Assembly: GCF_900115955.1 (NCBI RefSeq)
Contig: NZ_FOYL01000003.1
Span: 1 to 64,000, forward strand
DNA from: Lentzea waywayandensis
GTDB lineage: Bacteria; Actinomycetota; Actinomycetes; Mycobacteriales; Pseudonocardiaceae
Reading direction: 5' to 3'
Length of the DNA: 64,000 nt
Shown: piece after piece, positions 28,744 through 38,040 of the stretch
Layout: every line of letters begins with the position of its first letter
Position numbering within the stretch: position 1 is the stretch's first letter
Notes under the pieces: model-generated
Databases searched by the model: none
Told to the model about the DNA's origin: nothing
What the model saw: the letters and a program-made list of their open reading frames with translations, nothing else
Made by a program: the position numbers and the translations under genes

Positions 28744-29054
28744 GTTGCGCTGATTCCTGGGGCTCCGCCCCAGACCCCGCCAATCTGATCCAAAGCCGGG
28801 GCCTGCGCCGTGCGTGGGTTGATGGCACGCCTGGTGCGTTGGGCGGAGTTGCGTTGCTTTGGTGGTTGCGTTGGTGGGGTGGCTTCGTCACGAGTCGAGC
28901 CAAGAGCGGGCCACATCAGGGAAGGGGTGTCAAACCGACGAAAAGCGTGTCCAGTTGACACCCCTTCCCTGATGCAGCAAGAGCTGTGGCACGACTCGTG
29001 ACGAAGCCACCCCACCCGGACCGCTCGGTGAGGACGGCTCGCCTTCGGCTTCGC
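28744..29054. repeat. 311-bp hairpin-forming repeat element, copy 1
   Basis: This stretch aligns without gaps to 37730-38040 at about 91% identity (27 differences counted by eye). It has a left part with the small hairpin CTGGGGCTCCGCCCCAG and a long palindrome 28873-29016. The palindrome's outer arms are 28873-28897 and 28992-29016, and its inner arms are 28914-28933 and 28955-28974, each a perfect complement. The apical segment GACGAAAAGCGTGTC is identical in both copies. No protein is encoded. It sits in the rplO-secY spacer, downstream of a terminator. It could be a REP/MITE-like element or a structured RNA or transcription barrier. Confidence 0.9.
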
Positions 29055-29372
29055 TGCGATCATGCGTGGTTCGCTCTGCGGGTATTTCTGCGGGAACTTT
29101 GGTGTTGGTGTGAACGTTCGCCGGTGGCGCAATTGTTGGTCGTAGCACGGATCTTCAGTGCTCGGTACCCCGGATGGCCTAGTGGTGTGGTCAGAGATCA
29201 ACGAGTTGGAACCTGTGATTGGCCACTGGGTACGGCCTGGTCCTGGAGGGCTGTTAGAGTCGCGGGCTGAACCCGGATGTCCTCCGGGTTGCTTGGTCGT
29301 GGCTACCTGACTCGGCCTGCCAACTACCGCATGTGCCGGTCCCTGGGGGTCGGCAACGCTCAGGAGGTTCGC
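29055..29372 (+). promoter_or_regulatory. gene-free secY upstream region
   Basis: This 318-nt stretch after the repeat holds no recognisable gene. A weak -10-like TAGAGT (29255-29260) has no convincing -35 partner. The secY transcript must start here or read through the repeat. AGGAGG at 29362-29367 is the secY ribosome binding site. Confidence 0.4.
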
Positions 29373-30683
29373 GTGCTCGGCGCATTCCGCTCGGCTCTCG
29401 CGACGCCGGATCTACGCAAGAAGATCCTGTTCACGCTCGGGATCATCATTGTGTACCGGCTTGGTGCGACCATGCCCGCGCCGGGCGTGTCCTTCAAGAA
29501 CGTGCGGGCGTGTGCTGAAGCGCTCGAAGGTCAGAACATCTACTCGCTGATCAACCTGTTCAGCGGTGGCGCGCTGCTGAACCTCTCCGTGTTCGCGCTG
29601 GGCATCATGCCCTACATCACCGCGAGCATCATCATCCAGCTGCTCACCGTGGTCATCCCGCGGTTCGAGCAGTTGAAGAAGGAAGGACAGGCTGGTCAGG
29701 GCAAGCTGACCCAGTACACGCGGTACCTGACGATCGGGCTGGCGATCCTGCAGTCGACCGGTCTCGTGGCGCTGGCGGTGCGCGGGCAGCTGTTCGGTGA
29801 GTGCGACCAGGACGTCATTCCCGGCAAGGACAGCATCTTCACCCTCATCGTGCTGGTCATCACCATGACCGCCGGTACCTCGGTCATCATGTGGCTGGGT
29901 GAGCTGATCACCGAGAAGGGCATCGGCAACGGCATGTCGCTGCTGATCTTCACCGGTATCGCCGCCCGCATCCCCGCCGAGGGCAAGAACATCCTCGACA
30001 AGGACAAGCTCACGTTCGCCCTCGTGGTCGTGGCTGCTCTGATCATCATCGCGAGCGTCATCTACGTCGAGCAGGCCCAGCGTCGCATCCCGGTGCAGTA
30101 CGCGAAGCGCATGATCGGTCGCCGCATGTACGGCGGCACGTCGACGTACCTTCCTCTCAAGGTGAACCAGGCCGGCGTCATCCCGGTCATCTTCGCCTCG
30201 TCGCTGCTCTACCTGCCGGACCTGATCGTGCGCCTCACCCAGGGCTCGTCGACCGAGACGAACTGGTTCTCGACGTTCGTCCAGACGTACCTGGTCAAGC
30301 AGTCGAGCTGGGTGCACATCGCCGCCTACTTCCTGCTGATCGTCTTCTTCACGTACTTCTACGTCGGCATCACGTTCAACCCGGACGAGCGCGCTGACGA
30401 GATGAAGAAGTTCGGTGGCTTCATCCCCGGCATCCGTCCTGGACGCCCGACCGCCGAGTACCTCAAGTTCGTCCTGGGCCGCATCACGCTTCCCGGTTCG
30501 CTCTACCTCGGCATCGTGGCGATCCTGCCGAACCTGTTCCTGGACCTGACCGGTGACGGCCAGAACCAGAACTTCCCGTTCGGCGGCACCGCGGTTCTGA
30601 TCATGGTCGGTGTCGGTCTCGACACCGTGAAGCAGATCGAGAGCCAGCTCATGCAGCGCAATTACGAAGGGTTCCTCCGCTAG
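29373..30683 (+). CDS. secY: preprotein translocase subunit SecY
   Basis: The 436-aa membrane protein forms the SecYEG channel for protein export. Ten hydrophobic spans can be followed, beginning with [21 protein letters not shown], and the signature [18 protein letters not shown] is present, as is the cytosolic [19 protein letters not shown] loop that docks SecA. GTG 29373 is chosen because AGGAGG lies 5 nt before it and [18 protein letters not shown] is the usual start; the longer upstream frame is not conserved. Its stop abuts the adk ATG directly. Confidence 0.99.
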
Positions 30684-31232
30684 ATGCGACTCGTTCTCGT
30701 TGGCCCGCCCGGTGCGGGCAAGGGCACCCAGGCCGAAGTTCTGAGCCGCAAGCTCGGCGTGCCGCACATCTCGACGGGCGACCTCTTCCGGTCACACATC
30801 AGCAACCAGACCGAGCTCGGGCTGGAGGTGCAGAGCATCCTCGACGAGGGCGCTCTCGTGCCGGACTCCATCACGAACGAGATGGTGCGCAAGCGCTTGG
30901 CCGAGTCCGACGCCGCGGACGGGTTCCTGCTCGACGGGTTCCCCCGCAACGTCGCCCAGGCCGACACGCTGGGCGAGTTCCTCGCTGTCGGTGGCCACTC
31001 GCTCGACGCGGTGCTGGAGTTCCGGGTCGACGAGGACGTCGTGGTGGAGCGGCTGCTCGCACGTGGGCGCACGGACGACAAGGAAGAAGTCATCCGGCAC
31101 CGCCAGCAGGTGTACCGCAACGAGACCGCGCCGCTGCTGAGCTACTACGCGGAGAAGGTCATCTCCATCGACGCGGTCGGCGAGATCGACGAGATCAGCG
31201 AGCGGGCACTGGCCGCGCTGAACGAGAAGTGA
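30684..31232 (+). CDS. adk: adenylate kinase
   Basis: The 182-aa enzyme interconverts ATP + AMP and 2 ADP. It has the P-loop [10 protein letters not shown] (residues 7-16), the AMP-site HISTGDLFR, and [16 protein letters not shown]. The lid region is the short form ([14 protein letters not shown]), so no zinc-binding lid is present, as usual in actinobacteria. ATG 30684 immediately follows the secY stop, and the stop overlaps the possible GTG of map, so secY-adk-map is one unit. Confidence 0.98.
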
Positions 31233-31291
31233 CTGGTGGACTGCTTGACCGGCTCCGCTCAGTCATTTCGGGCGCAACAGGTAGTGAAGGC

Positions 31292-36281: not shown

Positions 36282-36836
36282 ATGCCCACCCCTACCAAGG
36301 GCCCCCGGCTCGGTGGGTCTCCGGCGCACGAGCGGCTGCTGCTCGCCAACCTGGCGACGGCGCTGTTCCAGCACGGCCGGATCAAGACCACTGAGGCCAA
36401 GGCGAAGCGGCTGCGTCCGTACGCCGAGAAGATCATCTCCAAGGCCAAGGCCGGCGACCTGCACAACCGTCGCGAGATCATGAAGGTGATCCGCGACAAG
36501 GACGTCGTCCACAAGCTGATCGCCGAGATCGGTCCGTTCTTCAGCGACCGCTCCGGTGGCTACACCCGCATCACCAAGACGCTGGCGCGCAAGGGCGACA
36601 ACGCCCCCATGGCCATCATCGAGCTGGTGCAGCAGAAGCTCGTCTCCACCGAGGCCGAGGCTGCGCGCAAGACCAAGTTCGCCAAGGACGAGAAGCCGGC
36701 CGAGGCCGCTGTCGTCGAGGCTGACGCCGACGAGACCAAGGCCGAGGACGCTGTCGAGGTTGACGGCGAGCCGACCGCTGAGGCCGTTGAGGCTGAAGAG
36801 GCGAAGGACGAGTCCGCTGAGAAGGACAAGTCCTGA
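36282..36836 (+). CDS. rplQ: 50S ribosomal protein L17
   Basis: The 184-aa protein begins [51 protein letters not shown] (segments), the complete L17 core of about 120 residues. A roughly 55-residue Ala/Glu/Asp-rich tail ([20 protein letters not shown]) follows, absent from E. coli L17 but seen in actinobacterial versions. ATG 36282 follows AGGAGC. L17 lies near the tunnel exit. truA begins 56 nt downstream. Confidence 0.98.
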
Positions 36837-36892
36837 TCGGTACGTCTGACGAGCCCGTCGTTCCCGGTTCCGGGGGCGGCGGGCTTGTTCGT

Positions 36893-37687
36893 GTGCGGTT
36901 CGACCTGGGATATGACGGGACCGAGTTCTCCGGGTGGGCGCGGCAGCCTTCCCGGCGGACGGTTTGTGGCGTTCTCGAGGACACGCTTTCGATGGTGTTG
37001 CGGGAGGACGTCTCGCTGACCGTGGCCGGGCGTACCGATGCCGGGGTCCATGCTTCCGGGCAGGTCGCTCACGCTGATCTGCCCTCGTCTGTTGATGTTG
37101 GTGCGTTGCCCAAGCGGTTGGCTCGGGCGTTGCCCTCGGATGTTCGGGTGTTCGCTGCTCGGGTGGTGCCCGCCGCCTTTGACGCGCGATTCTCGGCTTT
37201 GCGACGGCACTACGAGTACCGGGTTTCGGATGCTGACTTCGGGGCGCATCCGTTGCGGCGGTTGGACACCCTTGCCTGGCCTCGTCCGCTGGACGTTTCC
37301 GCGATGAACGTGGCCGCTGCGCTTTTGTTGGGGGAGCACGACTTTTGCGCGTTCTGCAAGCGGCGTGAAGGGGCCACGACGATCCGGGAGTTGCAGCGGC
37401 TTGAGCTGGTGCGATCCGAGGTTGATGGCGTGATCACGGCGTTTGTGTCCGCTGATGCGTTCTGTCACTCGATGGTTCGGTCGCTCATTGGGGCGTTGCT
37501 GGCTGTTGGGGAGGGGCGGAAGGCGGTTGAGTGGCCTTCGTCTTTGTTGTCGCTGAGTGGACGGGCCAGCGGGGTTACCGTGGCTCCTGCTCATGGGTTG
37601 TGCCTTGTGCGGGTGGATTTTCCTGGGGATTCGGAGTTGGCGGCTCGGGCTGAGGCGACTCGGCGGGTTCGTACGTTGGAGCGTTGA
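36893..37687 (+). CDS. truA: tRNA pseudouridine(38-40) synthase
   Basis: The 264-aa enzyme isomerises uridines 38-40 in the tRNA anticodon arm. It starts [18 protein letters not shown], has the catalytic loop [17 protein letters not shown] (nucleophile Asp near 49), and [19 protein letters not shown] in the C-terminal part. It begins at GTG 36893; the frame is open further upstream but has no better start. It uses TTG and GTT codons more than its ribosomal neighbours, consistent with lower expression. It is last in the rpoA cluster and is followed by repeat copy 2. Confidence 0.97.
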
Positions 37688-37729
37688 CGGCTGGCGTGTG
37701 GGTTGCGTGGGTTGCTGTGCGGGCGTGAC

Positions 37730-38040
37730 GTTGCGTTGATTCCTGGGGCTCCGCCCCAGACCCCGCCAATCTGATCCAAAACCGGGGCCTGCGCCGTGCG
37801 TGGGTTGATGGCACGCCTGTTGAGTTGGGCGGAGTTGCGTTGCTTTGGTGGTTGCGTTGGTGGGGTGGTTTCGTCACGAGCCGTACCAAGAGCGGGCCAC
37901 ATGCAAGGAGGGGTGTCAACTCGACGAAAAGCGTGTCGAGTTGACACCCCTCCTTGCATGCAGCAAGAGCTATGGCACGACTCGTGACGAAACCACCCCA
38001 CCCAGACCGCACGGTAAGGACGGCTCGCCTTCGGCATCGC
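37730..38040. repeat. 311-bp hairpin-forming repeat element, copy 2
   Basis: Gapless partner of 28744-29054. The central palindrome (37859-38002) has inner arms 37900-37925 and 37935-37960 that are a perfect 26-bp complement around a 9-nt loop. The outer arms 37859-37883 and 37978-38002 have one mismatch. Five base differences in the inner left arm relative to copy 1 are matched by five complementary differences in the right arm. A GGCTTCG/CGAAGCC pair of copy 1 is GGTTTCG/CGAAACC here. Lies after truA, as copy 1 lies after rplO. Confidence 0.9.

Follow-up and report, generated by a model that had tools for sequence, protein, structure and literature searches.

A dispersed palindromic repeat family of Lentzea and its relatives with nearly fixed loops, matched fast-changing stems and a one-strand wobble bias

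Dispersed palindromes of bacteria include the long-hairpin ERIC (127 bp) and YPAL (~168 bp) repeats of enterobacteria and Yersinia (PMC2267715) and the repetitive extragenic palindromes (REPs), which are 20-50 nt long and carry a GTAG motif (PMC8266576). Here we analyze an element that occurs twice in a 64,000-nt stretch of the Lentzea waywayandensis genome (hereafter, the window) and recurs in other genomes of Lentzea and its relatives. It belongs to a non-coding family, similar to REPs or to miniature inverted-repeat transposable elements (MITEs), which we propose is linked to the replication fork, kept palindromic by copying of one arm from the other, homogenized by ectopic gene conversion and folded in a strand-specific form that is read through its loops. 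We consider the chances of this reading to be about even. The copying and conversion half rests on patterns between copies, and the loop-reading half on wobble pairing and loop conservation.

The cited accounts of known systems were available in part, and our comparisons apply to those parts. Like ERIC and YPAL, the Lentzea repeats are dispersed, non-coding, intergenic long palindromes of similar length (PMC2267715). They are set apart by description, as a hypervariable inner stem with compensatory changes, a wobble bias on one strand, an orientation that follows replication and homogenization within genomes are not mentioned there for ERIC or YPAL. The resemblance to REP/REPIN elements and their RAYT (TnpA-REP) proteins lies in intergenic palindromes of which one strand is read and in which unpaired bases matter (PMC8266576), but the Lentzea hairpin is ~144 nt long, lacks, by eye, a conserved GTAG at its foot and is not accompanied by a Y1 transposase that tracks copy number. 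As in the CGTC-tagged palindromic repeats, a CGTC follows the small palindrome of the Lentzea 5' unit (by eye), and those families likewise have no dedicated transposase (PMC3733652). They are, however, short repeats with 8-9-bp stems from five listed phyla that exclude Actinobacteria (PMC3733652), whereas the Lentzea 5' unit is a constant component of a larger element. IS200/IS605-type single-strand transposons also involve a folded single strand and a replication-linked orientation (PMC6006769), but no transposase gene was found in or near the Lentzea copies, and the Y1 family does not track their number. Overall, the element behaves as REP- or ERIC-type palindromes do, yet it fails the tested REP/RAYT features and has no Rfam match. 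We found no description of the family in the literature searched, where most subscription papers were not covered.

The two window copies match without gaps over all 311 bases at 92.7% identity, close to the ~91% estimated in a preliminary description of this DNA. Copy 1 occupies the gap between rplO and secY, and copy 2 the gap between truA and a convergent subtilase gene. Sense refers throughout to the window's minus strand, as assigned from the covariance-model strand and the wobble counts given below. The parts of the two copies are as follows.

28744-29054, minus strand: copy 1 of the element (core; sense is the minus strand), gap rplO/secY
28873-29016, minus strand: double-stem hairpin of copy 1 (covariance-model match 28871-29019, minus, 161.5 bits)
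28914-28933, minus strand: inner-stem arm of copy 1, 20 nt perfect, partner 28955-28974
28955-28974, minus strand: opposite inner-stem arm of copy 1, from the inverted-repeat listing
28934-28954, minus strand: apical region of copy 1, conserved loop and imperfectly paired flank
29035-29054, minus strand: 5' unit of copy 1, GCGAAGCCGAAGGCGAGCCG
28757-28801 (28757-28773; 28775-28801), minus strand: two small 3' hairpins of copy 1, coordinates taken from the sequence
37730-38040, minus strand: copy 2 of the element (core; sense is the minus strand), gap truA/convergent subtilase gene
37859-38002, minus strand: double-stem hairpin of copy 2 (covariance-model match 37857-38005, minus, 170.7 bits)
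37900-37925, minus strand: inner-stem arm of copy 2, 26 nt perfect, partner 37935-37960
37935-37960, minus strand: opposite inner-stem arm of copy 2, from the inverted-repeat listing
37926-37934, minus strand: conserved apical loop of copy 2
38021-38040, minus strand: 5' unit of copy 2, GCGATGCCGAAGGCGAGCCG

Folding against shuffled sequences confirmed the nested palindromes at 28873-29016 and 37859-38002. The minimum free energies of copy 1 and copy 2 are -112.9 and -114.7 kcal/mol on the plus strand and -117.1 and -126.4 kcal/mol on the minus strand, with z-scores from -15.3 to -20.1 and none of 200 shuffles per fold as good. The two palindromes head the list of 23 inverted-repeat pairs for the window. 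Reading of the sequences also upheld two earlier observations: within positions 3-8 of the inner left arm, all five base changes have a match on the opposite arm, and the apical GACGAAAAGCGTGTC is identical between the copies. One correction applies: copy 1 is not fully paired beside the loop, where AAACCGAC lies opposite GTCCAGTT, so that its perfect inner arms comprise 20 nt compared with 26 in copy 2. The loop-adjacent arms of copy 1 (L001, window 28934-28954) resemble a mosaic of two apical types.

A DNA search of the whole genome (G000) placed the element at 38 sites, and the bracketing of the ribosomal cluster remarked on in the preliminary description consequently has no special meaning. 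Three of these places, at the ends of contigs C10, C7 and C5 (L028-L030), share one IS110-bearing flank and may represent fewer than three loci. The hairpin measures 114 nt between two fixed anchors at 36 of the 38 loci and 113 nt at one; the last locus (L038) is a truncated copy. In sense-strand order, the element consists of a 5' unit, GCGAWGCCGAAGGCGAGCCG, which begins ~35-40 nt ahead of the hairpin, then an outer stem separated by an asymmetric internal loop from the inner stem and its apical loop ACGCTTTTCG; 3' of the double-stem hairpin come a linker and two small hairpins with loop GATCAGATTG and stem CTGGGGGCAGAGCCCCCAG or shorter. No T run follows the sense hairpin, only AACGCAACC-like sequence (by eye). 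All 30 exact genome matches to the 5' unit lie at element copies, two of them as tandem duplicates. Similarity between copies has a fairly sharp 5' edge, most pairs stopping 35-55 nt ahead of the hairpin, and a variable 3' edge that sometimes runs into CGCAAGG-type repeats. The palindrome sits internal to both edges. Copies at unlinked loci can be very similar (98% identity between L001 and L002). No longer version of the element was present among the matches of this DNA search, in which insertion sequences were not systematically covered.

At L028-L030 an IS110-family gene, pieces of which match PF01548 and PF02371, is inserted within the 5' unit, and ends resembling this insert (TAATGAGTG..) recur at the same point in G006 (L076) and G012 (L074). 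Given this position and the recurring ends, the gene was apparently inserted into the element, and we rejected it as an autonomous partner. In several assemblies, including G003 and G011, contigs start or end within the element, as if the hairpin halts sequencing or assembly.

We aligned 55 copies, 33 from this genome and 22 from relatives. The RNAalifold consensus contains 57 pairs, 42 of which show at least one double change, and 98.8% of the cells in paired columns are paired. The covariation score was 0.414, against 0.150 after shuffling and 0.048-0.072 when the partner was slid by 1-3 columns; these values are not probabilities, because the aligned copies are related to one another and were themselves the source of the structure. 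Mean distances among 32 copies of this genome were 0.018 for the apical loop, 0.032 and 0.049 for the internal loops, 0.149 and 0.123 for the outer stem, and 0.382 and 0.410 for the basal inner stem. The loops are nearly fixed while the stems change in step. Over the first 15 pairs from the loop, which are quoted with gaps excluded because the inner segment was ended at the first mismatch beyond 15 bp, there are 8 non-Watson-Crick exceptions in ~1830, a near-total pairing that fits one arm having been copied from the other. Arm-to-arm copying or exchange of whole hairpins would also produce matching arms, and double compensatory changes alone are thus no proof of selection on the fold. The earlier argument that such changes mean a maintained fold holds for compensatory pairing, now seen in 55 copies, but not as proof of that selection. 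One G006 copy (L245) has its inner loop inverted with respect to the remainder of the element.

The wobble pairs, which favor one strand, are better evidence than the compensatory changes that one single strand matters. Among non-Watson-Crick pairs read in the sense across all stems of 122 of the 125 unique hairpins (three without the standard loop were excluded), G.U outnumbers A.C by 355 to 28, or by 67 to 10 when distinct combinations of genome, position and type are counted. The outer stem alone has 127 G.U and 1 A.C (distinct, 28 and 1), and 14 Saccharothrix hairpins taken from 17 loci have 23 and 5. Tandem wobble pairs lie at the inner-stem base of the sense strand, U.G in 47 and G.U in 54 of the 55 aligned copies. 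Sense-read U.U mismatches exceed A.A (distinct, 12 vs 2), and G.G and C.C are roughly even (distinct, 16 vs 12). One single-strand polarity, the window's minus strand, has the best-kept fold, and the G.U bias implies that this polarity is the one kept.

Comparisons at shared sites used 172 distinct fetched copies of known genome, a subset of each genome's copies, and counted as site-sharing those pairs from different species in which the alignment of each flank spanned at least 400 bp. This gave 117 pairs at 32 sites, with a mean flank identity of 87%; of 34 copies from this genome, 24 have a fetched counterpart from another species at the same site. An identical inner hairpin was found in none of the 117 site-sharing pairs, in 222 of 1523 pairs within genomes and in 86 of 13066 pairs between genomes at other sites. 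Because each inner hairpin was trimmed at its first non-Watson-Crick pair, the lack of single-arm changes in this set follows by construction, and it was not used. In G006, one inner hairpin is common to 15 of 21 fetched copies. L022 and L281, among the closest pairs, have flanks that are 96 and 97% identical and the same junction; the two differ at four bases within a 5-bp block, each with its match on the other arm. The outer-stem type is fully linked to the 3'-hairpin type in all 34 copies of this genome, and the two linked types have 1 of 13 basal inner blocks and 3 of 6 apical blocks in common, a distribution indicating that inner-stem blocks shuffle between two sub-families by short exchanges inside the hairpin.

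Sites also differ in what they retain. Relics with the hairpin partly or wholly deleted occur in other species at the rplO-secY and truA sites. The L034 site, a convergent gap, has a whole or nearly whole element in G000, G004, G005, G009 and G011, a nearly whole one with its 3' end cut by an insertion in G020, and a truncated one in G023; the element is absent from the remaining species, including G014, a near relative of G020. By eye, a short terminator-like hairpin stands instead at this site (L431-L454) in G014, G010, G013, G008, G006 and G015 and is not present in the element-bearing species. The check for target-site duplications proposed in the preliminary description, made at three loci, showed neither a clean empty site nor a duplication. 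Another family of long hairpins (GCGATTGGGGCTTGACC.. and its complement) lies in the rplO-secY or truA gap in G008 (L072), G002 (L082) and G007 (L111), species that have no whole copy of the main element there.

With genes called by codon usage only, 44 of 135 copies lie between convergent genes and 8 between divergent ones; in tandem contexts, 27 copies are in sense and 24 in antisense, and for the other 32 one side is uncalled. The element avoids gaps between divergent genes. The suggested link to highly expressed genes was not borne out, as copies occur genome-wide and most often between convergent genes. We rejected the idea that sense placement in 3' untranslated regions sets the orientation: an initial count had looked strongly biased (90 vs 29), but the tandem contexts are even. 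By eye, the terminator-like hairpins of rplO and the subtilase gene themselves still adjoin the element. Pentamer arrays of CCCAG (6.4 copies) and GCCGT (10.6 copies) lie beside copy 2, at window 38107-38188.

Orientation agrees between neighboring copies on the same contig in 74 of 86 pairs and differs in 12 (211 copies, among the matches listed). In G001, a genome assembled as a single contig, dnaA lies at 2.90 Mb; in the L. waywayandensis genome it lies at 523.7 kb of contig C22. With the terminus assumed to lie opposite dnaA, all 8 copies in G001 and 8 of the 9 on C22, where orientation switches at dnaA, have their sense strand directed against the fork; combined, this is 16 of 17 (binomial p 0.0003). 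On the window's contig (C23), which probably follows C22 on the chromosome as judged from the place of rplO, 9 of 10 copies run against the fork.

The covariance-model search proposed in the preliminary description recovered further copies in the genus and family, contrary to the possibility that none exist. At E 1e-4, matches (counted on both strands of each palindrome) occur in 22 of 24 Lentzea genomes, this one included, several with only few, and DNA similarity gives at least one match in all 24. Across the family, at E 1e-5 and with filters that lose weak matches, 32 of 297 genomes and 5 of 46 genera have matches. A loop-pattern scan returned named stretches that are nearly all from Lentzea, among the 80 of 105 stretches listed. 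Five stray loop matches outside Lentzea and Saccharothrix were folded, and a comparable hairpin was formed only in Nocardia transvalensis, of another family (L319), with -133 kcal/mol, the same apical loop and otherwise different stems. A phage origin was rejected, as the loop pattern had no matches in viral contigs. No match in the window reached the Rfam 15 gathering thresholds; at low threshold there were 21 matches in seven loci, each below cut-off and mostly to unrelated miRNA models. The suggestion of a REPIN- or MITE-like dispersed element made at the outset is supported. Of the 24 Lentzea genomes, 11 have Y1 transposase genes (PF01797), and G004, G005, G009 and G023, which are rich in copies, are not among them; reverse transcriptase genes (RVT_1) were found in 12 of 24 and not in G000, G004, G005, G009, G020 or G023. 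Neither tracks copy number, and we therefore dropped both Y1/RAYT and a reverse transcriptase (retroelement, retron or group II intron) as mobilizers.

Under the fork-linked reading that we favor, the palindrome would fold at the replication fork and sometimes be broken or mis-copied, fold-back copying would keep its two arms matching, and repair from another copy by ectopic gene conversion would distribute new inner stems genome-wide. The conserved loops would be putative contacts for a protein that reads the folded single strand, possibly a mobilizer, or an RNA-binding factor if the sense strand is transcribed. A bolder version, which we advance only tentatively and regard as rather doubtful, is a replication-oriented element whose fixed loops are recognized on the folded strand and whose inner stem is a fast-changing, homogenized 'barcode', with fold-back and fork conversion as its own copying mechanism and with species-specific stem sets. 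Several points weigh against fork-linked copying and conversion. No conversion or copying event was directly observed, and cleavage of palindromes by SbcCD-type nucleases enters as general background. Whole elements are nearer to same-genome than to site-sharing copies, which re-insertion would give likewise, in a comparison whose fixed windows make the flank identities too low. One further site bears the element in opposite orientation in one species. Finally, the few Saccharothrix copies placed show no fork polarity (3 of 10 against the fork in G298 and 1 of 2 in G214, among the matches listed), and this genus has the wobble bias nonetheless.

The element might instead be a structured RNA, whose sense transcript forms a hairpin with fixed loops that acts at mRNA 3' ends by protection, as an RNase III site or in termination where genes converge; plain selection on RNA would then account for the covariation and the tolerance of G.U. 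We give this explanation a modest chance. It accommodates the one-strand G.U bias in both Lentzea and Saccharothrix, the conserved tandem U.G and G.U pairs, the fixed loops, the share of copies in convergent gaps and, at the L034 site, the terminator-like hairpin seen only in several element-free species, and ERIC in Yersinia is reported, in the available part of its account, to act through RNA hairpins (PMC2267715). It fits poorly with the unbiased orientation in tandem genes, the tracking of replication by orientation, the nearly wobble-free first 15 inner pairs, the missing T run and the terminator-like hairpins that rplO and the subtilase gene keep beside the element.

Active single-strand transposition, in which a transposase acts on strands folded at the fork, sets orientation and inserts repeatedly into the same gaps, would make the species differences new insertions. 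The orientation bias, the near-identical unlinked copies (L001/L002), the tracking of genome rather than site by the whole element and the one site with opposite orientation are all consistent with it, but the patchy Y1 genes, the identical junction of L022 and L281, the inner-stem blocks found on both linked sub-families and the three loci without a clean empty site or target duplication make it improbable. The wobble bias could also be a footprint of DNA repair, with the putative host NucS removing plus (antisense)-strand hairpins that bear G-T when they form at the fork. This actinobacterial mismatch nuclease prefers G-T, G-G and T-T over A-C, according to the portion of the source available (PMC8228993). 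In Lentzea, the template of lagging-strand synthesis would be the antisense strand. The predicted excess of sense U.U over A.A is observed, but the second prediction fails because G.G and C.C are about even, and Saccharothrix has the G.U bias without fork polarity; we consider this explanation very unlikely.

Long perfect palindromes are generally unstable in bacteria. This family keeps dozens of them in each genome, at sites common to different species, and they change fast and remain paired. It is a natural test bed for the copying, breakage and repair of palindromes at replication forks. It also carries a warning that compensatory changes among repeat copies need not imply selection on RNA. 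If a loop-reading protein does exist, it would represent a new hairpin-binding system in actinobacteria.

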